64,000 bases of DNA from contig CALVBA010000006.1 of NCBI GenBank assembly GCA_944325695.1, positions 1-64,000 on the forward strand. Reading direction: 5' to 3'. Numbering within the stretch: position 1 is the stretch's first letter; each line of letters opens with the position of its first letter. The stretch is from an uncultured Anaeroplasmataceae bacterium. Lineage in GTDB: Bacteria; Bacillota_I; Bacilli_A; Acholeplasmatales; Anaeroplasmataceae. The position numbers and the translations under genes were made by a program. Shown here in pieces: positions 1,094 through 48,016 of the stretch. The notes beneath the pieces were generated by a model that was given only the letters and a program-made list of their open reading frames with translations, was not told the origin of the DNA and searched no databases.

Positions 1094-2926
1094 TTAATCT
1101 TCGCTTGATAAAATTGCCATGAAAGCTTCTTGTGGCACTTCAACACTTCCGATAGCCTTCATTTTCTTTTTACCTTCTTTTTGTTTTTCTAACAGTTTTT
1201 TCTTACGGCTGATATCTCCACCATAACATTTTGCTAAAACATCTTTACGCATTGCTTTTATATCCGTTCTAGCAATAACTTTATTGTTAACTACCGCTTG
1301 TACTGGGACTTCAAACATCTGACGTGGAATCAAATCTTTTAGTTTTTCGCAAATAACTTTACCTCTTGCGTAAGCAAAATCTTTATGAACAATTAATGAT
1401 AAAGCATCTACTGGATCACCATTTAGACAAATATCCATTTTTTGTAATTTAGATTCTTTATAATCACCTAATTCATAATCAAATGATGCATATCCTTTTG
1501 TACCACTTTTTAAGCGATCAAAAAAATCATATACGATTTCTAATAATGGCATATCATAATGGATTAAAACACGTTTTTCTTCAATATATTGCATATCTAA
1601 AAATGTTCCACGTTTCTTTTGACATAGCTCCATAATGGCTCCTACATATTCTGATGGAGTCATAATTGTTGCTTTTACATAAGGCTCTTCAATCGATTTA
1701 ATCTTTTGAACAGGAGGCATCATACATGGATTATCTAATTGAATTTGTGTTCCATCTGTTAAATTAACTTTATATATAACTGATGGAGCAGTAGCAATTA
1801 ATTCAATTCCAAATTCACGTGAAATACGCTCTTGGATAATATCCATGTGTAATAATCCTAAAAATCCAGTTCTAAATCCAAATCCAAGGGCTTGAGATGT
1901 TTCTGGTTCATAAACTAATGAAGCATCACTTAATTTTAATTTATCTAAAGCATCTTTTAAATCATTATATTTGGAAGTATCAATTGGATATAATCCCGCA
2001 TAAACCATCGGATTTAATTTACGATATCCAGCAAGAGGGATTAATGACTCATTTTCAAGTGTTGTAATGGTATCTCCAACATGAACCGTATTAATATCTT
2101 TGATTGAAGCTGTAATAAATCCAACATCTCCAACAGTAAGATAATCTAATTTCTTTTCTTTAGGTGTTCTAACACCTAATTCAACTACTTCATACATGGC
2201 ATTTGTCGCCATCATTTTAATCGTATCTCCACGCTTAATAGTTCCATTTACAATACGCACTAAAGCAACAACTCCACGATATGGGTCAAATGCACTGTCA
2301 AAGATTAAAGCTTGAACTGGAGCTTGTGGGTCCCCTTTAGGTGGTTCAACTTTATGAACAATTTGTTCTAAAATTTCTTCAATACCAATTCCTACTTTTG
2401 CTGATGCTAAGACTGCATCATCTGCTGGAAGACCTATTACATCCTCAATTTCTTGCTTAACTACATCAGGTTGAGCACTTGGTAAATCAATTTTATTAAT
2501 TAATGGTAAAATTTCTAAATTATTATCTAAAGCTAAATAAACATTAGCTAATGTTTGCGCTTCAATTCCTTGAGCTGCATCAACAACTAAAATCGCTCCT
2601 TCACAAGCTGCTAAACTACGTGAAACTTCGTATGTAAAATCGACATGTCCTGGAGTATCGATTAGATGTAAGATATATTCTTCACCGTCTAAAGCTTTAT
2701 AATTTAGGGCTACGGCATTTAATTTAATCGTGATTCCACGTTCACGCTCTAAATCCATATTATCAAGTAATTGCTCTTTCATTTCGCGTTTTTCTAAAGC
2801 ATTACATTTTTCCAATATTCTATCTGCTAAAGTCGATTTCCCATGGTCAATATGGGCAATAATAGAAAAGTTTCTAATCTTTTTTTGTCGTTCCTTTAAT
2901 TTTTCATAAGGGATTTCAATGGCCAT
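1094..2926 (-). CDS. lepA: Elongation factor 4 (LepA), back-translocating GTPase
   Basis: Ribosome-bound translational GTPase that remodels or back-translocates elongating or initiating ribosomes. The 610 residues are full length. The P-loop AHIDHGKST is at 24-32, DTPGH at 90-94 and NKID at 144-147, followed by EF-G-like domains and the LepA-specific C-terminal domain ([22 protein letters not shown] near the end). It is cytosolic or loosely membrane-associated. The start has a ribosome site GAAAGGAATG, and a TATAAT box lies at 2950-2955 just upstream, with only a weak -35. It appears to be a single-gene unit between the rnpB terminator and its own terminator. Identity is certain from sequence. 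Confidence 0.98.
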
Positions 2927-3013: not shown

Positions 3014-3364
3014 ATGTAATTTCTATAAGCCATGTTTTGTACCTTTAAAAGGCGGTAATCATCTATCTGTAAGAAAAAATCTTACCTTCCTTGTGGCTTC
3101 TTAATTCGCCCTTAGAAGTGCTCCTACCAAATTTGGATTACTAGCTTGAGGGGTTTACCGCGTTTCATTTTACTATTTCTAGTAACATCGTTTCTGTGGC
3201 ACTTTATGATCATCATCATGGTCAAAGACTTTAGACTAAGATCGCCGTCACCCAAAAGGTGCCTTAACTTATTGTTTCGTTAAGCACAAACACTACATTC
3301 ATCACAGAATGTGCTAGCATGGACTTTCCTAACATATAAATATGCTCGATTACCCAAAATTACT
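3014..3364 (-). ncRNA. rnpB: RNase P RNA, Bacillus type (class B)
   Basis: Catalytic RNA of ribonuclease P, which matures tRNA 5' ends with the RnpA protein. I recognise the conserved blocks on the minus strand: GGGTAATCG near the 5' end, GAGGAAAGTCC-like GGAAAGTCCATGCT, the AAAGTGCCACAG segment, AACGCGGTAAACCCCTC, the class-B CCAAATTTGGTAGG stretch, AGATAGATGATTACCGCC, and ACAAAACATGGCTTATAG near the 3' end. The two ends (GTAATTT and AAATTAC) pair to form P1, which sets the boundaries to within a few bases. The ACAAAACATGGC block and long P10.1/P5.1 layout match the Bacillus class. Confidence 0.96.
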
Positions 3365-11905: not shown

Positions 11906-11931
11906 AAAAAAATTCTTCGTCAAACGAAGAA
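11906..11931 (-). terminator. Riboswitch-controlled terminator before thiT
   Basis: TTCTTCG-TTTGA-CGAAGAA followed by seven T on the minus strand, between the TPP aptamer and the thiT ribosome site. This is the expression platform: termination is expected when TPP is bound. Confidence 0.9.
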
Positions 11932-11936
11932 CATGA

Positions 11937-12033
11937 AAAAAATATGTTCCTACGCTAGCATTACCTAGATCAGGTTATGGGTCGAAGTTGATTACTTCCT
12001 CTCAGCCTGCCTACAAGCTCCCCGTTTACGAAG
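11937..12033 (-). promoter_or_regulatory. TPP riboswitch (THI element)
   Basis: On the minus strand the aptamer shows the conserved GGGGAGC, GGCTGAGAGGA, ACCCATAACCTGATCTAGGTAATGCTAGCGTAGGAA blocks (given in part), the hallmark of thiamine-pyrophosphate sensors. The outermost 5' bases CTTCGTAAACG are complementary, with one bulge, to CGTTTGACGAAG in the downstream terminator, so they can act as an antiterminator. Confidence 0.96.
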
Positions 12034-12057
12034 TATAAAAAAAATTATGACATCTAT

Positions 12058-31927: not shown

Positions 31928-33403
31928 ATGAACACAAAAAAATTTTTTAAAAACTTAAGTATCTTAATTTCCACAGGTTTAATTATTAAAGCATTAAGCA
32001 TGGCTAATCGTGTTTTGGTTACACGGTTTTTAGGTTTAGAAATATTAGTTAAATACGCTTTATTTACTCCAACTATGTTACTTTTTTTATCTTTAGCAGA
32101 TTTTTCATTACCAACTTCCTTACAAAAATTTATTGCTAAAGAATCGATTAAGCCTGATGCGAATATTAAAGGTATTTTGAAAAATGCTTTTACAATCATG
32201 ATTAATGTATGCTTAATTTTATCAATTATTTTATTAATTACTGCAAATTTCATAACTAAGTATCTATTGTTTGAACCACTTTTATTTAAACCGTTAATTT
32301 TTGTAATTCCTTTAATGTTTTTTGTTTCTTTTTCTGGTATTTTAAAAGGACTCTTGCAAGGATTGGAATATGTCAATGTAACTGGTTTTAACAATTTAAT
32401 GGAAGCAATTTTAAAAATTATAATCAATTTTATAATTATCTTTTACTTTAAAACTAACATCTATCAAACGATTTTATATATTGTAATTGGCTTAAATATT
32501 GAAGAATTTTTATCTTGTTTATTTTTAATTTATAAAGTTAAAAGGTTAAAAATTATTCCTAAATACGAAAAAAGAGAGCCTGTTTCCCCTCTTTTTAAAA
32601 TGACAAGTATTATCACACTAAATCGTCTTATATATACTCTTTCTAATTTTTTAGAACCAATTATCTATACATACGCTTTAATGCAAATTAAAATTCCTCA
32701 AGCAATCATTCAAGAAGAATATGCTTTAATCACAAGCTATGCTATTGGCCTACTTTTAACATCATCTTTTATATCACATGCCATAAGTATGGCCCTCTTG
32801 CCGATCTTATCAAAACACAATCAAAATAAAGAAGATTTACATAAAATTCTTTCTAAAGCTTTATTTATTTGTTTTATCCCAAGTATTATCATATCACTTA
32901 TCTTCTTTTTTCATGGTGGAGATTATTTAAAATTAATTTATGATATTAATCGTGGTGGTAATTATGTCAAGATTTTAGCTTTTCCTTTTATGCTAGCATA
33001 TTTTGAAGGACTTTTTTACATTGTTTTACACTCTATTAATAAAACAAAAACTACTTTCTTCATTAATTTGTGTGTTACTTTAACCAAAATATCACTACTT
33101 TTTATTACAACTAAAAATCCCTATATTGGAGTTTACGGCTTATGCATTAGTAGTATCGTTGGTAATATATTATCATTTGCTTTAAGCTATCTATCAGTAA
33201 GAAAAGAAATTCATTACCAAATTAAATTAAAATCATTCATCTTAACAATAATACTCATTTTTGTCATTGGATTATATTTTAATTTTCTAAAAAATTTTTC
33301 AATTCATTTTATCATGCAAGATTTTCTAGCTTCAATTTTATATTTAGCTATTATTTTAATTTACTATAAGAAATATTATGCATATGATATTCATGCGGAA
33401 TAA
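31928..33403 (+). CDS. Polysaccharide/lipid flippase of the MATE-like (SpoVB/MurJ/Wzx) superfamily
   Basis: A membrane exporter expected to flip a lipid-linked saccharide. The 491 residues have about 14 hydrophobic helices. The N-terminus with GLIIKALSMANRVLVTRFLGLE resembles SpoVB-like proteins of Bacillota (residues given in part). The FSGILKGLLQGLEY segment is typical of the superfamily. The ribosome site GAGGT lies seven bases before ATG. It is divergent from apt. The last 53 bases overlap the 3' end of the DUF421 gene on the other strand. Which polymer it serves is not visible. Confidence 0.88.
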   Translation: MNTKKFFKNLSILISTGLIIKALSMANRVLVTRFLGLEILVKYALFTPTMLLFLSLADFSLPTSLQKFIAKESIKPDANIKGILKNAFTIMINVCLILSIILLITANFITKYLLFEPLLFKPLIFVIPLMFFVSFSGILKGLLQGLEYVNVTGFNNLMEAILKIIINFIIIFYFKTNIYQTILYIVIGLNIEEFLSCLFLIYKVKRLKIIPKYEKREPVSPLFKMTSIITLNRLIYTLSNFLEPIIYTYALMQIKIPQAIIQEEYALITSYAIGLLLTSSFISHAISMALLPILSKHNQNKEDLHKILSKALFICFIPSIIISLIFFFHGGDYLKLIYDINRGGNYVKILAFPFMLAYFEGLFYIVLHSINKTKTTFFINLCVTLTKISLLFITTKNPYIGVYGLCISSIVGNILSFALSYLSVRKEIHYQIKLKSFILTIILIFVIGLYFNFLKNFSIHFIMQDFLASILYLAIILIYYKKYYAYDIHAE

Positions 33404-34016
33404 TTAGTGTTTTTCCATTTGAGAAAACAAGTAACTCTTCTTTATAATTTTTATTTATTTTCGCGAACATTCTTAATAAAATTTCATCGTCAATTTTTAA
33501 TAAAGCTAAGTTTTCTAACAAAATTTCTCCTGATTCCACTACTGGTAAAACTAATTCATTATTATCACTTCGTTTAAAAACCGATAATTGACCATTGGTC
33601 TCTAAAATAGCTATTAAAACATCGCTTATAACTAAACATCCTGATGTCCTTAATTGAAGTAATAAGTCACTAACGTTATACATTTGTTTTTGTAATGACT
33701 CATAGCATATTTCACCATTAATAACCAAAACAACTGGCCTTCCTTCGACAAGTTTACGAATCTTATTACTTTTAAGACAAATAATCGAAAAAAGACGTTG
33801 TAAAATAACAATCATAATTAAAAAAATCAAGGTTATATAGTCATAAGCTTCTAGCTTTTCTAAACCTAAAACGGCGATATCGGCAATCAGAAGTAAAACT
33901 ACAAGATCAAAAATTGATAATTGTCCAACTTCTCTTTTTCCTAGAATGCGGATTAAAACAATTAATAATAAATAATAAAATGTAACTTTAATAACAGCGA
34001 TTAAAATCTTTATCAC
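33351..34016 (-). CDS. DUF421 (YetF-like) membrane protein
   Basis: A conserved membrane protein family with sporulation- and spore-germination-linked members (YetF, YkjA); biochemical role unknown. The 221 residues have three N-terminal helices containing RILGKREVGQLSIFDLVVLL, the family signature, then the cytoplasmic beta domain with GRPVVLVINGEI. GTG at 34016 is used as start, with GGGG next to it; the true ribosome site is unclear. It is convergent with the flippase gene, overlapping 53 bases, and divergent from the gene at 34078. Confidence 0.9.
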   Translation of the reverse strand: MIKILIAVIKVTFYYLLLIVLIRILGKREVGQLSIFDLVVLLLIADIAVLGLEKLEAYDYITLIFLIMIVILQRLFSIICLKSNKIRKLVEGRPVVLVINGEICYESLQKQMYNVSDLLLQLRTSGCLVISDVLIAILETNGQLSVFKRSDNNELVLPVVESGEILLENLALLKIDDEILLRMFAKINKNYKEELLVFSNGKTLIIPHEYHMHNISYSKLK

Positions 34017-34077
34017 CCCGTTATAGTTTTAACATATCTTATATAAGTTATGCATAAGTTTTAAAGGAGGTGATGAA

Positions 34078-36125: not shown

Positions 36126-38549
36126 CTAATTATTTACTTCATCTAGATTTAAAGTAACCTCTTCGACATTAAATCCTGATTCTATTTCGTTTAATGTTAA
36201 TGATTCAATGAATAATGTTGCTTTAAAATCTTTTAATGAATTATTAATTGCTTCTTTTAAACCTTTATTTACACTTATAACTAGTGATTTAATTGGTGTT
36301 TTTAAAGAAACATTATTATTTGTTTTAGCTCCACGAGCGATACTAATAATTTCTAAAATTTGTTCTCCAAAATTTACTTCATCAACAAATTCATATAAGA
36401 ATGGTTTAATTTCAGTTTTATGAATTGATACTTCATTATGATATAATTCTTGGAAAATTTCTTCTGTAATAAATGGGAAGAAAATACTGAAGTTTTGTAA
36501 GAATTTATATAAAATCATATAAACAGTTTTTTGGCCACTATAACGGTTGATAACCCCAAATTCTTCAGGACGATATAAACGATGTTTAACAATTTCAATA
36601 TAATTATCACAGAAATTCCAAAAGAATTTTTCTAACGCATTTAATGCTAATCCTACTTCATATTCTTCTAAATAATTAATAAATTGTTTTTCCATTGCGG
36701 CAAAACTTCCTAGGATATAACGATCGATATATTCAAAATCATTAAAATCTTGGTCTTTAAAATCAGCTAAATGCATTTCAATGAATTTAGATACATTCCA
36801 AATTTTATTAATTAATTTTTTACCACGTTGTAAAGTTTCCTCACTAAAGACGATATCCGTTCCTAAACGACCTGAACCAGCCCAATAGCGAATAACATCT
36901 GCTGAGTAATTTTTAATTAAATCAATTGGTTCAACTTTACTATTACCTTTACTTTTACTTATTTTTTCTCCTTTATTTGCCATAACAAATCCAGAAATCA
37001 TTACATTATCCCATGGTTTTTCACCAAAATGATAGAAACTTTTAACAATCGTATAAAAATCCCATGTACGAATAATTTCACTTGCGTTTGTTCTTAAGCT
37101 CATTGGACGTAAGATTTTTTCATAATTATTTTCTTCACCATAATTCATGTTAATTAATGGCGTTACAGACGATGTGGCCCAAGTATCCATAACATCAGTT
37201 TCTGGTACAAAATCATGGCAACCACATTCACATTTAGATATATGTGGCTTGTCAACTAATGGATTAACCGGTAAATCTTCTAATCTAGCAAATACCGGCT
37301 TTCCGCAATCTTTACAATACCAAACTGGAAAAGGTACTCCAAAATATCTTTGACGAGAAATACACCAATCCCAAGCAATATTATTAACCCATTCTTCATA
37401 ACGTTTTTGCATGTGTTGTGGATACCATTTAATTTCACGACCGATACGTAAAAAATCTTCTTTATGGCTCATAATATCAATAAACCATTGTTTCATAACC
37501 GCATATTCTACTTCATGACCACATCTTTCATGTGTTTGAACCTCGTGTTCTAATTCTTCAATCTTAACAATATACCCACCGGCATTTAAATCTTCAACAA
37601 TTTTTTTACGAGCTTCTTTAATTTTTAAACCACCGTAATTAGCTACGCTATTTACGATATACCCATTTGGTGTAAAAATATTTTTTAATGGTAAATTGTA
37701 TTTTTTCCACCATTCAATATCTGTTTGGTCACCAAATGTACAACACATTACAACTCCTGTTCCTTTATCGATAGCTACTTTTTCATCAGCCATGATTGGA
37801 ACTTCAACATTTACTACAGGAATAACAGCTGTTTTTCCAACTAAATGGGCTCTTTTTTCATCATTTGGATTGACAAAAACACAAACGATTGCTGGTAATA
37901 ACTCTGGACGAGTAGTCGCTATTGTAAATGTTTCATTATCTTCTTTTGTTGTAAAATTAACATAGTTAAACGTTGTTTTAACCGTTTTTGTTTCTAATTC
38001 AGCTTGTGCAATTGAAGTTAAACATTCATTACACCATAATGCTGGACTTTCTTTGTGATAACAATGTCCTTTGCTTACTAAATCTAAAAACGATTTTTGA
38101 CTGATTTTGATTGTTTGTGGACTTACAGTTTTATAACAAATATCCCAATCTGTACTAACTCCTAATTTTGAAAATAAAACTTTAAAATCTTGTTCGTATT
38201 TATCAGTTGTATCATAACATAATTTAGCAAAAGCTTCACGACCAATTTCATGTGCTTTCTTACCTTGTTCTTTTTCAACTAAACGTTCACTTGGTAATCC
38301 GTTATCGTCAAATCCAAATGGATAAAAAATATTATATCCACGTAAACGTTTATATCGAGCTAACATTTCAGCTTGTGAATATGAAAAAATATGCCCAATA
38401 TGAATTTTTCCACTAACAGTTGGTGGTGGTGTATCAATTGAATAAACCTGTTTGTTATCCTCATTTTTAAAAGCATAAATTTTTTTATCATGCCAATAAT
38501 TTAACCATTTTTCTTCTTTTTCTAAGGCATTATATTTTTTATCTAGCAT
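36126..38549 (-). CDS. valS: Valyl-tRNA synthetase, archaeal-like short form
   Basis: A class I synthetase charging tRNA-Val, with an editing domain. The 807 residues are shorter than typical bacterial ValRS (about 880) because the C-terminal coiled-coil arm is missing. The start PPPTVSGKIHIGHIFSYSQ, HIGH at 50-53 and KISKSKGN read like archaeal/Rickettsia-type enzymes rather than PPPNVTG-HMGHA. Zn-type Cys pairs are at CNEC and CKDC/CECGC. It lies four bases after a GNAT gene, and the leader T-box carries a Val codon, which confirms specificity. Confidence 0.96.
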   Translation of the reverse strand: MLDKKYNALEKEEKWLNYWHDKKIYAFKNEDNKQVYSIDTPPPTVSGKIHIGHIFSYSQAEMLARYKRLRGYNIFYPFGFDDNGLPSERLVEKEQGKKAHEIGREAFAKLCYDTTDKYEQDFKVLFSKLGVSTDWDICYKTVSPQTIKISQKSFLDLVSKGHCYHKESPALWCNECLTSIAQAELETKTVKTTFNYVNFTTKEDNETFTIATTRPELLPAIVCVFVNPNDEKRAHLVGKTAVIPVVNVEVPIMADEKVAIDKGTGVVMCCTFGDQTDIEWWKKYNLPLKNIFTPNGYIVNSVANYGGLKIKEARKKIVEDLNAGGYIVKIEELEHEVQTHERCGHEVEYAVMKQWFIDIMSHKEDFLRIGREIKWYPQHMQKRYEEWVNNIAWDWCISRQRYFGVPFPVWYCKDCGKPVFARLEDLPVNPLVDKPHISKCECGCHDFVPETDVMDTWATSSVTPLINMNYGEENNYEKILRPMSLRTNASEIIRTWDFYTIVKSFYHFGEKPWDNVMISGFVMANKGEKISKSKGNSKVEPIDLIKNYSADVIRYWAGSGRLGTDIVFSEETLQRGKKLINKIWNVSKFIEMHLADFKDQDFNDFEYIDRYILGSFAAMEKQFINYLEEYEVGLALNALEKFFWNFCDNYIEIVKHRLYRPEEFGVINRYSGQKTVYMILYKFLQNFSIFFPFITEEIFQELYHNEVSIHKTEIKPFLYEFVDEVNFGEQILEIISIARGAKTNNNVSLKTPIKSLVISVNKGLKEAINNSLKDFKATLFIESLTLNEIESGFNVEEVTLNLDEVNN

Positions 38550-38553
38550 TTTT

Positions 38554-39057
38554 TTATATTCCTTTCTTTAATGTGTATAAATATACGTCTTTGATCAATC
38601 CATTATCTAGCTTTTTAAAGCCATATAAAATTCCATCTTTGACAAAACCCAATTTTTGAGCAAGTTTGATACAAGCAATATTATCGGTAAAGACTAATAA
38701 ACAAATCATATCATATTCTAAAAAAAGATATGGAATAAATGTCCTTAAAACTTCTTCCATAACTTTTTTTCGATGAAAGTTTCGATTTAACATAAAACCA
38801 ATTTCAATGCTTGGTATAGCTTTATGCAAAAAATCTTGATATAAACCAATTGTTCCAATAACAATTTCATTGTGAACAATCACATACGTATTATCTTGAA
38901 AAATCATCCCACTAACAAGATAATTACATACATCAAGACTTTTTGTTGGTTTTAATCCGGCACTTCTTGCGACTATATCATCGCTTATAATTGCGTAATA
39001 ATCGAAAGCATCTTCTAATGATAATTTACGAATTTTATAATGGGCTGTTTCTAACAT
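38554..39057 (-). CDS. GNAT acetyltransferase leading the valS operon
   Basis: An acetyl-CoA-dependent N-acetyltransferase of the RimJ/RimL type; the substrate is unknown. I start at ATG 39057, eight bases after AAGGA. Longer readings run into the T-box terminator. The 167 residues show VIGTIGLYQDF, the IEIGFMLNRNFHRKKVMEEVL helix with an atypical CoA loop, and a C-terminal CIKLAQKLGFVKDG. It is four bases before valS and controlled by the Val T-box. The same GNAT-synthetase pairing occurs at hisS-aspS. Confidence 0.87.
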   Translation of the reverse strand: MLETAHYKIRKLSLEDAFDYYAIISDDIVARSAGLKPTKSLDVCNYLVSGMIFQDNTYVIVHNEIVIGTIGLYQDFLHKAIPSIEIGFMLNRNFHRKKVMEEVLRTFIPYLFLEYDMICLLVFTDNIACIKLAQKLGFVKDGILYGFKKLDNGLIKDVYLYTLKKGI

Positions 39058-39078
39058 TTTCATCTTCCTTTTTAAAAA

Positions 39079-39105
39079 TAAAAAAACGTCCTTAAAAAAG
39101 GACGC
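39079..39105 (-). terminator. T-box-controlled terminator
   Basis: GCGTCCTT and AAGGACG pair on the minus strand, followed by seven T, immediately after the T-box core. Confidence 0.92.
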
Positions 39106-39303
39106 AAAATAAGCGTGGTACCACCTTAATTCTAGCATAATGCTAGCACTCAACCTCTTAACGCGAGTAACGTTTTAGACTACTAAAATTCACCTAAACA
39201 CTCCACAGCTACCTTCATAAACCATCATTATGAAATCTTTCACCAATTGATTTCTCTCTTTTAATAATAATTGTGTTTATTACTCCTCTGTATCATTGCT
39301 TTC
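39106..39303 (-). promoter_or_regulatory. T-box leader, Val specifier
   Basis: The T-box core AAGGTGGTACCACG is present on the minus strand. Stem I has ACAG/CTGT below and ATAAAC/GTTTAT above the specifier loop. The loop shows AGTA on the 5' side and GAAGGTAG on the 3' side, that is the S-turn GAA, one base, then GTA (Val) and a purine, the standard register. The apical loop region is AGAGAGAAATC-AATTGGTG. It controls the GNAT gene and valS. Confidence 0.95.
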
Positions 39304-39309
39304 ATGTGC

Positions 39310-44607: not shown

Positions 44608-45984
44608 TTACATAACCTTATTCCACGGTTTGTTTATAGTCGATAAAATTATAATGTATGGTATCATATATAAAATATAGAAAAATGTATTGTCAATCAT
44701 TCCATGAACTAATCCTACAAAAGTAAACGTTAAAATTGCTATTTTATCTAATCCACCTCTTCGGATAATACCAACAAAGCTTTCAATAAAATGATATACA
44801 ATAGCCAATAAACCAAACGTACCTCCAGCTGCTAAGCATGTCATAAACGTATTATGACATAACCAAGGATTAATGACAAACGTTTTATTAAAAAGGCTAT
44901 TTATTTCGATTAAAAAAACTGGTGATCCTCCAAATAAAAGATGGCGATGATCATTATAAGTATAATCGAAAATCCATTTCCAAAAAATATCTCTTCCTGT
45001 AACATCCAACCCTTTTAAGATTAATCGATCGATATTTACTTTTACAATTGGAATATTAAAATAAGATAAAAATCCTATAAAACCAATCAATAACATAATA
45101 GTAATAAAATTACGATATTTGTGTTTAGTTTGGTGTAATACAATATACAAAAGTAATGGCATCATAAAAATAGTTGTCACTTGGCCGCCACGAGAACCCC
45201 CAGTTATAACAAAAAATAACAATCCTGCCATTAAACATAATAAATCAATACGTTTAAAGTTTTTACTGTATAAGCATGCAATAAATGGCAGACACATTTC
45301 AATTGCGATGGCCATAGAATTTTTCTCACACCAAGCAATAAATGGATAGATTTCTTTAAAGTCAAAACTTTTTTTCGTAATGACTGCAATAACTAACTGA
45401 GTAAATAAATAAAGACCAAAAACGAAAAAAACTTTAGAAAAAAACGCTTGATGTTTTAAGTCATTACAACTAGATATAAATAAACTAAACAATGCCATTG
45501 CAAGAACAATTAAAGATAATAAATACCCATATTTAATGTTGTATACTGTTTCATATCCTGAATTAGGAAATGCAGGTTGATTATAAAAAATATGGCGTAT
45601 TACTGTGGCAATAAAACAACCTAAGGCTAATAATAATAAGCTATAAGATATAATACTCCCATTAAATTTAACTTTAATATGTTTTATATTACGGACTAAA
45701 TAAATAATAACACTTAAAGCAAGGCCAATAATGGTTATAATCATCTCAAATGGCATTTCCGACATATTAACAAACCCCTGATAGCAACTCATGGCAAAAG
45801 GGGCTACAGCTAAAATCGTTTTAGCATCTTTTGATAATAATGGCGTTAAAACTAAAAAAAATGTAATACAATAATATGCTATTTTTTGGTTACGAGTATA
45901 CCAAAAAATAAGACTAATTATCCCAATTAAACCAATATATATATAGCTGTGCGCAAAATCATCTAAACGCCTCTTAATATCCAT
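44608..45984 (-). CDS. O-antigen ligase/polymerase (Wzy_C) family membrane protein
   Basis: Likely polymerises or attaches a surface polysaccharide. I use ATG 45984, which overlaps the mtaB stop as TAATG; a TTG 27 bases upstream lies inside mtaB. The 458 residues have about 11 hydrophobic helices. GGSRGGQVT, a large extracellular loop with GRDIFWKWIF and a HNTFM motif match the Wzy_C signature. Coupling to mtaB, a tRNA-modification gene, is odd. No glycosyltransferases are near, though a flippase lies at 31928. Confidence 0.85.
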   Translation of the reverse strand: MDIKRRLDDFAHSYIYIGLIGIISLIFWYTRNQKIAYYCITFFLVLTPLLSKDAKTILAVAPFAMSCYQGFVNMSEMPFEMIITIIGLALSVIIYLVRNIKHIKVKFNGSIISYSLLLLALGCFIATVIRHIFYNQPAFPNSGYETVYNIKYGYLLSLIVLAMALFSLFISSCNDLKHQAFFSKVFFVFGLYLFTQLVIAVITKKSFDFKEIYPFIAWCEKNSMAIAIEMCLPFIACLYSKNFKRIDLLCLMAGLLFFVITGGSRGGQVTTIFMMPLLLYIVLHQTKHKYRNFITIMLLIGFIGFLSYFNIPIVKVNIDRLILKGLDVTGRDIFWKWIFDYTYNDHRHLLFGGSPVFLIEINSLFNKTFVINPWLCHNTFMTCLAAGGTFGLLAIVYHFIESFVGIIRRGGLDKIAILTFTFVGLVHGMIDNTFFYILYMIPYIIILSTINKPWNKVM

Positions 45985-47270
45985 TATTCTTCGACTACTT
46001 TCCCGTAGCAATAAGGATATTCGTATTTTTCAATTTTTACTTGAATATCTTTTCCAATAAAATCAGTCATTTTTGGAATTAAAACCTTTAAGTAATTTGT
46101 TGTGTGTCCCACTAAATATTCTTCATGTGTATTTTCAACAATAATATCTAATGTTTTTCCAACAAATTTTTGCGCATATTCAGCTTCTAATTCTTTACTT
46201 AAATTCATTAATTCTTTAACACGATTATCTTTTACTTGATCTTTAACTTGTGTCATTAATGCAGCTTTTGTCTTTTCACGTTTCGAATAAGGGAAAACAT
46301 GAATTCCACTAAATCGAACCTTTTTAATAAATTCTAAGCTTTCATTAAATTGTTCATCTGTTTCTGTTGGAAACCCAACAATTACATCTGTTGTAATTGA
46401 AATATCTTTACATGCGTTTCTAATTTTTTGAACTTTTTCATAGAAGTAATTTGTATCATATTTACGATTCATTAATTTTAAAATTTCATCTGAACCAGCT
46501 TGTAAAGGTAAATGCAGATGTTTAGCAATCACTTTTTCATTTTGTAGCATTTCTAAAAACTCATCATCGATTTCGTTAATTTCAATACTAGATAAACGTA
46601 AACGACGTAAACCTTTTACCTCATTTACAATCATTTTGACTAATGCAGATAAATTAACATCATTATCACGATATTTCCCCGTATGAATTCCTGATAAAAC
46701 AACTTCCTTATATCCTTTATAAACAATTCCTTGAATTTCTTTTAATACGTCTTTATAAGGTTTTGAACGTACTCTTCCACGAGTATATGGAATGATACAG
46801 TAACTACAAAAATTATCGCATCCATCTTCAATTTTTAGAAAAGCTCTTGTATGTTCAAACTCAAAACTCATTAAATCTTCATAAGTTGTATCGCGTAAAA
46901 TATCTTTAACATCGACATAACATTCATCAACTTTATTGTTTAAAACAAGTTCTACCATTTCTTTTTTATGATTATTTCCAATAACAGCATTTACCCCGAT
47001 GATTTTAGAAACTTCATCTGGTTTTGCTTGACTATAACATCCCATTACACCAACAAAGGCATCTGGGTTCATTTTAATTGCTTTACGAATCATTTTACGA
47101 CTTTTAGCATCCGCCGTATTAGTTACACTACATGTATTTATAATATAGCAGTCAGCTACACTATCAAAAGGAACACGGCTAAATCCTTTTTCAACAAACA
47201 TATTCGCAACAGCTTCAGTTTCATAATTATTTACTTTACACCCAAGAGTGTAAAAAGCTACTTTTTTAAT
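45984..47270 (-). CDS. mtaB: tRNA t6A37 methylthiotransferase MtaB with an ATT start
   Basis: A radical-SAM enzyme adding a methylthio group to t6A37 of tRNA-Lys. The first in-frame ATG (47201) would delete AFYTLGCKVNNYETEAVAN, which holds the first Fe-S cysteine. Reading back, a stop appears after 11 more codons, with no ATG, GTG or TTG between. The ATT at 47270, eight bases after AGGAG, is the only sensible start. The 428 residues have the N-terminal MTTase domain (TLGCKVN, CSVTN, MGCYSQ), radical-SAM CSYCIIPYTRGRVRS and a TRAM domain. It follows rsmE by 11 bases. Confidence 0.93.
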   Translation of the reverse strand: MKKVAFYTLGCKVNNYETEAVANMFVEKGFSRVPFDSVADCYIINTCSVTNTADAKSRKMIRKAIKMNPDAFVGVMGCYSQAKPDEVSKIIGVNAVIGNNHKKEMVELVLNNKVDECYVDVKDILRDTTYEDLMSFEFEHTRAFLKIEDGCDNFCSYCIIPYTRGRVRSKPYKDVLKEIQGIVYKGYKEVVLSGIHTGKYRDNDVNLSALVKMIVNEVKGLRRLRLSSIEINEIDDEFLEMLQNEKVIAKHLHLPLQAGSDEILKLMNRKYDTNYFYEKVQKIRNACKDISITTDVIVGFPTETDEQFNESLEFIKKVRFSGIHVFPYSKREKTKAALMTQVKDQVKDNRVKELMNLSKELEAEYAQKFVGKTLDIIVENTHEEYLVGHTTNYLKVLIPKMTDFIGKDIQVKIEKYEYPYCYGKVVEE

Positions 47271-47281
47271 ATTATCAACTC

Positions 47282-48016
47282 CTATTTTAATTCCCGTTCA
47301 TATGATAAAGCTGCTAAAAAATAAAGAGCGGCTGTTTCTGTACGTAAAATACGTGGGCCTAAAGCACAAGAAATAAAACCATTTTCTTTAAAGAATGCAT
47401 ATTCTTGATTAGATATTCCACCTTCTGGCCCGATTGCAATTAATACTCTTGAGCCTTTATTCAGATTTCTTAAAACAGCTTTTAAAGCACTTTTTTCACC
47501 ATCTTTAGCATCTTCTTCATACGCCAATATTTTAACATCATAATCAGAAAAAACAACTTTTGTTAGCTTTGTAATCGGATATACCTGTGGTAAAATGTTT
47601 CTGTGTGATTGTTCAGCGGCCTCTTTTACAATTTTTTGTAGACGCGCTGTTTTTTTAATTCCACGTTCTTCATCAAACTTAACTACACTTCTTTCCATTA
47701 GACAAGGTAAAAAAGCATCTGCTCCTAGCTCAGTTGCTTTTTGACAAATAAATTCCATTTTATCCGCTTTAGGATATCCTTGTAAAATTGTTACACTAAT
47801 ATCCATTTCACAGTTATTTTGGAGTACTTTTTCAATTTCAAAAGTTAATTCTTTTTTGGAAATAAAAGTAATTTTGGCTTCATAACATTTCCCATCATAA
47901 CAAACGATAATTAAATCATTAATATTCATCCGCATTACATTTGTAATATGATGAAAATCATCACCATAAATTTTTTTATTGATGAATGAATTTTGATCAA
48001 TAAAGTATTGTTGCAT
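47282..48016 (-). CDS. rsmE: 16S rRNA m3U1498 methyltransferase
   Basis: A SPOUT-class methyltransferase for U1498 of 16S rRNA. The 244 residues have an N-terminal PUA-like region (HHITNVMRM), the SPOUT core with LGADAFLPCLMERSVV and the SAM knot IAIGPEGGISNQE, ending LRTETAALYFLAALSYE. prmA, which often precedes it after dnaJ, is absent. It starts two bases after the unknown membrane protein gene with no clear ribosome site, so it depends on coupling. Confidence 0.96.
   Translation of the reverse strand: MQQYFIDQNSFINKKIYGDDFHHITNVMRMNINDLIIVCYDGKCYEAKITFISKKELTFEIEKVLQNNCEMDISVTILQGYPKADKMEFICQKATELGADAFLPCLMERSVVKFDEERGIKKTARLQKIVKEAAEQSHRNILPQVYPITKLTKVVFSDYDVKILAYEEDAKDGEKSALKAVLRNLNKGSRVLIAIGPEGGISNQEYAFFKENGFISCALGPRILRTETAALYFLAALSYERELK

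Follow-up and report, generated by a model that had tools for sequence, protein, structure and literature searches.

Start site and N-terminus of mtaB

On its minus strand the window, a stretch of 64,000 nucleotides from the genome of an uncultured Anaeroplasmataceae bacterium, contains an mtaB gene whose first in-frame ATG lies behind the sequence for the TLGCKVN motif. At which codon does the translation of this gene begin? A first-pass annotation had suggested ATT at 47270 and had related this codon to the fidelity of initiation. The features of the locus are the following:

45984..47297, minus strand: stop-to-stop mtaB ORF
45984..47270, minus strand: mtaB, predicted tRNA t6A37 methylthiotransferase of 428 residues (initiator Met included) when read from ATT
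47268..47270, minus strand: putative ATT start codon of mtaB, matching the position of ATG/GTG/TTG in orthologues
47279..47283, minus strand: Shine-Dalgarno sequence (SD) AGGAG of mtaB, 8 nt (ttgataat) before ATT
47298..47300, minus strand: in-frame TGA closing the mtaB frame, 9 codons upstream of ATT
47199..47201, minus strand: first in-frame ATG of mtaB, SD score -3.0 (no SD); a start here would delete TLGCKVN
47276..47278, minus strand: out-of-frame TTG adjoining AGGAG; its use would need a frameshift or a missing A (rejected)
47282..48016, minus strand: rsmE, gene upstream of mtaB, with its stop 11 nt before ATT

The minus-strand sequence confirmed that AGGAG resides eight bases in front of ATT 47270 and that ATG, GTG and TTG are absent from the mtaB frame between the upstream TGA (47300-47298) and the TLGCKVN motif, as had been annotated. 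The frame above ATT is open for nine codons and not for 23; it is the first ATG that lies 23 codons from ATT, on the downstream side. ATT is followed by the codons AAA AAA GTA GCT TTT TAC ACT CTT GGG TGT AAA. The first two bases of AGGAG overlap the rsmE stop codon TAG (47284-47282), and the extended part of the SD contains one mismatch (AGGAGTTGAT). Its aligned spacing to ATT is 7, which is the commonest value in this genome (shared by 94 ATG genes), and it gave ATT an SD score of -9.8, as against a best usable score of -3.3 for TTG 47278. The mRNA structure around the start did not disclose anything unusual (z -0.07).

Identification of the product as MtaB is solid, the profile match to TIGR01579 reaching 454.2 bits at a cut-off of 357.05, with the UPF0004, radical SAM and TRAM domains all present. 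From its family membership, the predicted function is the methylthiolation of tRNA t6A37. In methylthiotransferases, the Cys of the TLGCKVN motif coordinates the auxiliary Fe-S cluster. Only when mtaB was read from the ATT side was the UPF0004 profile (positions 1-98) complete. A start at ATG 47201 lowered its score from 89.4 to 59.6 bits and removed profile positions 1-22 including the Cys motif, which bears out the annotated loss of TLGCKVN. The protein read from ATT also aligned from its residue 1 to the MiaB structures 7mjv and 7mjz.

Start codons of mtaB in other bacteria

Matches to mtaB (E <= 0.001) were found in 55 of 55 genomes of the family, its own included, those in G024 and G073 being weak and of paralogue level only. 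For the comparison of start sites, identical stretches were removed, leaving 56 distinct family and order rows besides that of the window. All 56 orthologues possess a canonical start six to eight codons upstream of TLGC (51 ATG, 4 GTG, 1 TTG), and the ATT of the window, at -7 codons, occupies the same place. In the relatives, the SD of mtaB is contained in the tail of rsmE and the start codon as a rule overlaps the rsmE stop or directly adjoins it, whereas in the window it is the SD that overlaps the rsmE stop, with ATT 11 nt beyond it. According to the first-pass annotation, ATG at this position in relatives would speak against an AUU start, and within the family ATG was indeed the prevailing codon (51/56). 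These ATGs indicate that the AUU is derived in this genome; they do not show that an ATG is hidden here. Judged from the alignment and from the one assembly that shows the ATT, no other member of the family appears to share the AUU at mtaB.

A wider set comprised 80 mtaB loci, in 78 of which the motif was matched. A canonical codon at -5 to -12 was present in 76 of these 78 (69 ATG, 4 GTG, 3 TTG); in the two unmatched loci, L052 and L103, ATG was recognized by eye. Three loci (L112, L113 and L114) exhibited ATT at -6 codons, preceded by an SD at spacing 8. No canonical start is available in L112 and L114, whose frame is closed by a TGA three codons above ATT. In L113, which is counted among the 76, ATT has an SD score of -7.4 and a GTG at -9 lacks a usable SD (-3.7). 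The three sequences belong to two MAGs titled Monoglobus sp. and one titled Clostridia; they are 72-89% identical in the mtaB region, where ATT is invariant while the next codon varies (ACC, ACA or ACT). At position 1495 of all three loci, the mtaB ATT follows a long ORF, judged helicase-like by eye, instead of rsmE. The SD-backed ATT in three Monoglobus-type MAGs thus makes the AUU start more than an oddity of one genome. From these sequences, mtaB very probably acquired an AUU start on two or more occasions.

Candidate AUU and AUA starts in the genome

The genome sample consisted of the window and L161-L200, altogether 849,309 bases with 707 coding ORFs or approximately 63% of the 1.34-Mb genome. 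We scanned it for non-canonical codons within the first 15 codons that were preceded by an SD (score <= -8.5) at an aligned spacing of 6-8. Sites were discarded if an SD-backed canonical start came before them, if any canonical codon occurred in the six codons that follow, or if an SD-backed canonical codon occurred in the following 20. These filters were fixed after a first look at the data, and the same rules were applied to the shift and relative controls; they replaced an earlier scoring, which admitted any chance-scored internal start and missed several candidates.

Sixteen sites passed (6 ATT, 5 ATA and one each of CGG, GTT, AAT, TTT and GAT). With a background of 9.3%, 1.5 ATT/ATA sites were expected and 11 of 16 were observed (P=1.2e-8). 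The ATT candidates are mtaB, infC, a DUF421/YetF gene, lysC, a ZIP transporter gene and L186 11672; the ATA candidates are gpr, a DAO oxidoreductase gene, a nucleotidyltransferase gene, L191 8398 and L182 944, the last of which is counted among the eleven and is doubtful, having a negative coding score. The nucleotidyltransferase was identified by an ILAAG-type motif and its relatives; its assignment as GlmU (at L184) was dropped, the relatives being only about 30% identical. Five of the eleven sites, mtaB not among them, have a GTG three codons upstream, which resides inside the SD and has no SD of its own; this GTG could be the true start of those five genes.

The excess was found at the right spacing only. 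When the spacing was shifted, using a slightly different filter, ATT/ATA accounted for 11 of 20 sites at spacing 6-8, as against 3 of 14 at 0-2, 4 of 20 at 3-5, 3 of 19 at 9-11 and 1 of 19 at 12-14. Six relatives (1.2 Mb, 929 ORFs) yielded 15 sites including a single ATA (1/929 vs 11/707, Fisher P=7e-4; 0.003 without L182 and infC). With the first 318 control ORFs alone P was 0.02 at the main threshold, and a laxer threshold (11/707 vs 1/318) gave no significance (P=0.12). The relative G002, which has the same GC content (27.7%), contributed one ATA in 376 ORFs, with P=0.067 when taken alone. This sole ATA candidate of the control set (L388, plus strand, 13256) stands behind GAGGTG. Another G002 gene (L203, plus strand, 10785; MurI-like by eye) may start with ACG, as this codon has an SD and none of the canonical starts does. 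Altogether, these counts place the window's mtaB within a more general excess of candidate AUU/AUA starts in this genome.

Individual candidate genes were compared with their counterparts in relatives. The infC gene of this genome reads GGAGGTG taacat ATT AAT AAA (L117, minus strand, ATT near 2030). At the infC loci of the family (L301-L329, 29 relative loci, a few of them motif-unmatched), ATT, once ATA and once ATC stand behind strong SDs, while in-frame ATGs further downstream mostly have no SD; the family infC ATT served as positive control for SD scoring. At lysC, which was matched in 42 relatives, ATT occurs at -5 here vs ATG at -5 in each of the 29 relative loci that were read. The ATA of gpr is located at -3; among 19 relative loci the motif was found in 16, all of which have a canonical codon at -2 to -4 (11 ATG, 4 TTG, 1 GTG), L290 remaining unscored as it lies too close to the locus end. 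The nucleotidyltransferase gene has ATA at -4 vs ATG at -5 or -8 in eight distant relatives. The DUF421 gene is the second ATT-start candidate in the window:

33351..34007, minus strand: DUF421/YetF gene, putative ATT start at 34007-34005, no SD-backed canonical start
34012..34019, minus strand: Shine-Dalgarno sequence GGGGTGAT of the DUF421 gene

Its ATT is at -19 and would make the protein two residues shorter than in most relatives, which have an SD-backed ATG or GTG at -21 or -22 (the list for L364 stops short of its ATG, and the motif was unmatched in L375). Besides mtaB, the start checks at relative loci cover infC, lysC, gpr, DUF421 and the nucleotidyltransferase.

Other elements were also recognized in the window. 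A class B RNase P RNA and a TPP riboswitch (3021-3361 and 11930-12034, minus strand) both lie above the Rfam gathering score. A GNAT-like stop-to-stop frame (38554-39174), situated ahead of an apparent aminoacyl-tRNA synthetase (36126-38567), is overlapped at its 5' end by a T-box leader (39095-39305, minus strand).

Alternative explanations

We consider it likely, with a probability of roughly 0.8, that mtaB is translated weakly from AUU 47270, thanks to its SD, and that the lineage tolerates starts at AUU/AUA. An assembly or base-call error, in which 47268 is really a G and the mtaB start an ordinary ATG, would agree with the canonical start found at that place in all 56 family and order orthologues and with an ATT at 47270 that is known from one assembly. 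A one-base error, however, cannot explain the set of about ten genes in the sample that show the same ATT/ATA replacement; the error rate needed, estimated at more than 1% per base, would put stops into ORFs, and the 707 coding ORFs are open. Moreover, ATT occurs at mtaB in three separate Monoglobus-type assemblies. Such an error thus appears improbable. We regard as still less probable a start at TTG 47278, from which the mtaB frame would be reached either through loss of one A from the A6 run (as an assembly indel or by transcript slippage) or through a -1 frameshift on A_AAA_AAG, which is a known slippery heptamer. The TTG does open a reading one base out of frame (TTG ATA ATA TTA AAA AAG TAG), and a likely poly-A frameshift exists elsewhere in the assembly, in an ABC ATPase gene (L168, minus strand, 1460..2113) whose N-terminus is, by inspection, apparently cut by it through mutation, assembly error or a programmed shift. 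But TTG abuts AGGAG without any spacer and has the poor SD score given above, the aligned ATT requires no indel, and the two Lys codons suffice to explain the A run. An indel restoring an ordinary start, which the first-pass annotation had considered as a way to dismiss the AUU, was not found at this site; TTG 47278 is the sole canonical codon nearby. Least probable is a start at ATG 47201 giving a truncated, inactive enzyme, i.e. an early pseudogene. Although it is the first canonical start and the one reported by the mechanical ORF list, it has no SD and would forfeit UPF0004 positions 1-22, and the remaining frame is intact with a score far above the family cut-off.

A further reading adds to AUU translation rather than excluding it: the AUU may be a selected control point that ties MtaB synthesis to the IF3 level, as for infC. 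The infC gene of this genome is itself AUU-started, and the AUU of mtaB, very probably of repeated origin, was kept in three Monoglobus-type species while the third position of the next codon varied. In E. coli, excess IF3 inhibits non-canonical starts, as stated in an excerpt of PMC2268962. On the other hand, the family orthologues of mtaB mostly have AUG, and the other AUU/AUA genes are without evident common function. As mtaB is one of about ten functionally mixed AUU/AUA genes, a special role in initiation fidelity is not the simplest reading. The earlier interpretation is supported as to AUU initiation, the SD and the requirement for the Cys motif at the N-terminus; its link to IF3 or fidelity is conjectural. 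IF3-dependent control of mtaB is a fair hypothesis; that the AUU was selected for this purpose seems unlikely.

Proposed initiation at AUU and possible causes

For the preferred reading, initiation at AUU 47270, we propose that this lineage exchanged an earlier AUG (or GUG/UUG) for AUU. AGGAG (47283-47279) would position the 30S subunit with AUU in the P site, where the initiator fMet-tRNA (anticodon CAU) could pair with AUU at two of three positions, yielding a protein that begins with fMet-KKVAFYTLGCK. Initiation would persist at a reduced rate owing to the strong, well-spaced SD, and coupling to the termination of rsmE 11 nt upstream may assist it. The genome-wide pattern, AUU/AUA starts at about ten sampled genes each with a strong SD, would fit this mechanism. 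Actual initiation, a lower yield and a tolerance of such starts as their cause are what we infer from these sequences.

Several causes of such a tolerance were considered. Loss of KsgA is linked with lax initiation; ksgA is present here (206 bits vs a cut-off of 171). A divergent IF3 was rejected as well, as the 12 of 90 near-invariant positions that differ are not distinctive (20 in another member, 10 and 8 in others). Low GC alone fails because G002, at the same GC, has almost no such starts. As regards an altered initiator tRNA as a possible cause, the whole-genome tRNA search gave 28 matches and no CAU or Ile tRNA, evidently due to an assembly gap, and rough motif patterns for RsmH, RsmI, IF1 and Fmt, too rough to mean absence, had no match in the genome sample. 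Tentatively, start discrimination might be relaxed in this organism, AUU/AUA serving as regular weak starts in about 1.5% of genes (some 17 when the sample is extrapolated to the genome); these might form an IF3-sensitive set including infC and mtaB, and AUU control might have been acquired by mtaB more than once among unrelated Bacillota.

If AUU/AUA starts are used, gene finders restricted to ATG/GTG/TTG shorten about ten or more proteins here, and MtaB loses its cluster-binding motif. A genome rich in such starts beside the equal-GC G002 with almost none would be a natural system for studying start-codon stringency (IF3, initiator tRNA, 16S rRNA), and the AUU at mtaB in Monoglobus-type bacteria would make regulated MtaB synthesis directly testable.

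Comparison with known systems

The titles and abstracts returned by searches of the open-access literature disclosed neither an AUU start at mtaB nor frequent AUU/AUA starts in Erysipelotrichia-like bacteria. An excerpt of PMC5622118 gives one AUG to AUU switch in 61,358 among 36 genome triplets. Such rarity speaks against initiation at AUU in mtaB, and it makes about ten starts of this kind in one genome exceptional. In vitro, AUU and the CAU anticodon form a weak pair, with very low full-length product in an AcPro assay (PMC10158994, in part).

Compared with the MtaB/YqeV family (TIGR01579), the window protein has the same full three-domain architecture and motif, the start codon of its gene being the sole difference. 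The closest parallels come from S. aureus, for which the consulted part of PMC13009471 describes an AUU start at cvfC1 and AUA starts at ccpN, infC and citZ. Extended SDs were predicted there for cvfC1, ccpN and infC, and cvfC1, ccpN and citZ reached approximately 10% of the AUG reporter yield in poor medium. Like mtaB, the latter three are Bacillota genes with a near-cognate AUN codon and a properly spaced SD, and citZ is lineage-limited too; four sites were identified according to this part of PMC13009471, whereas here 63% of a 1.34-Mb genome yields about ten candidates. The AUU start of E. coli pcnB, cited in the same excerpt, likewise concerns a housekeeping RNA enzyme limited by AUU, though in a different gene and phylum. 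The AUU/AUA start of infC, known for autoregulation by IF3, is a further parallel: mtaB shares with it the AUU behind a strong SD, which infC has here and across the family. Unlike infC, mtaB encodes no initiation factor and has AUG in most relatives.
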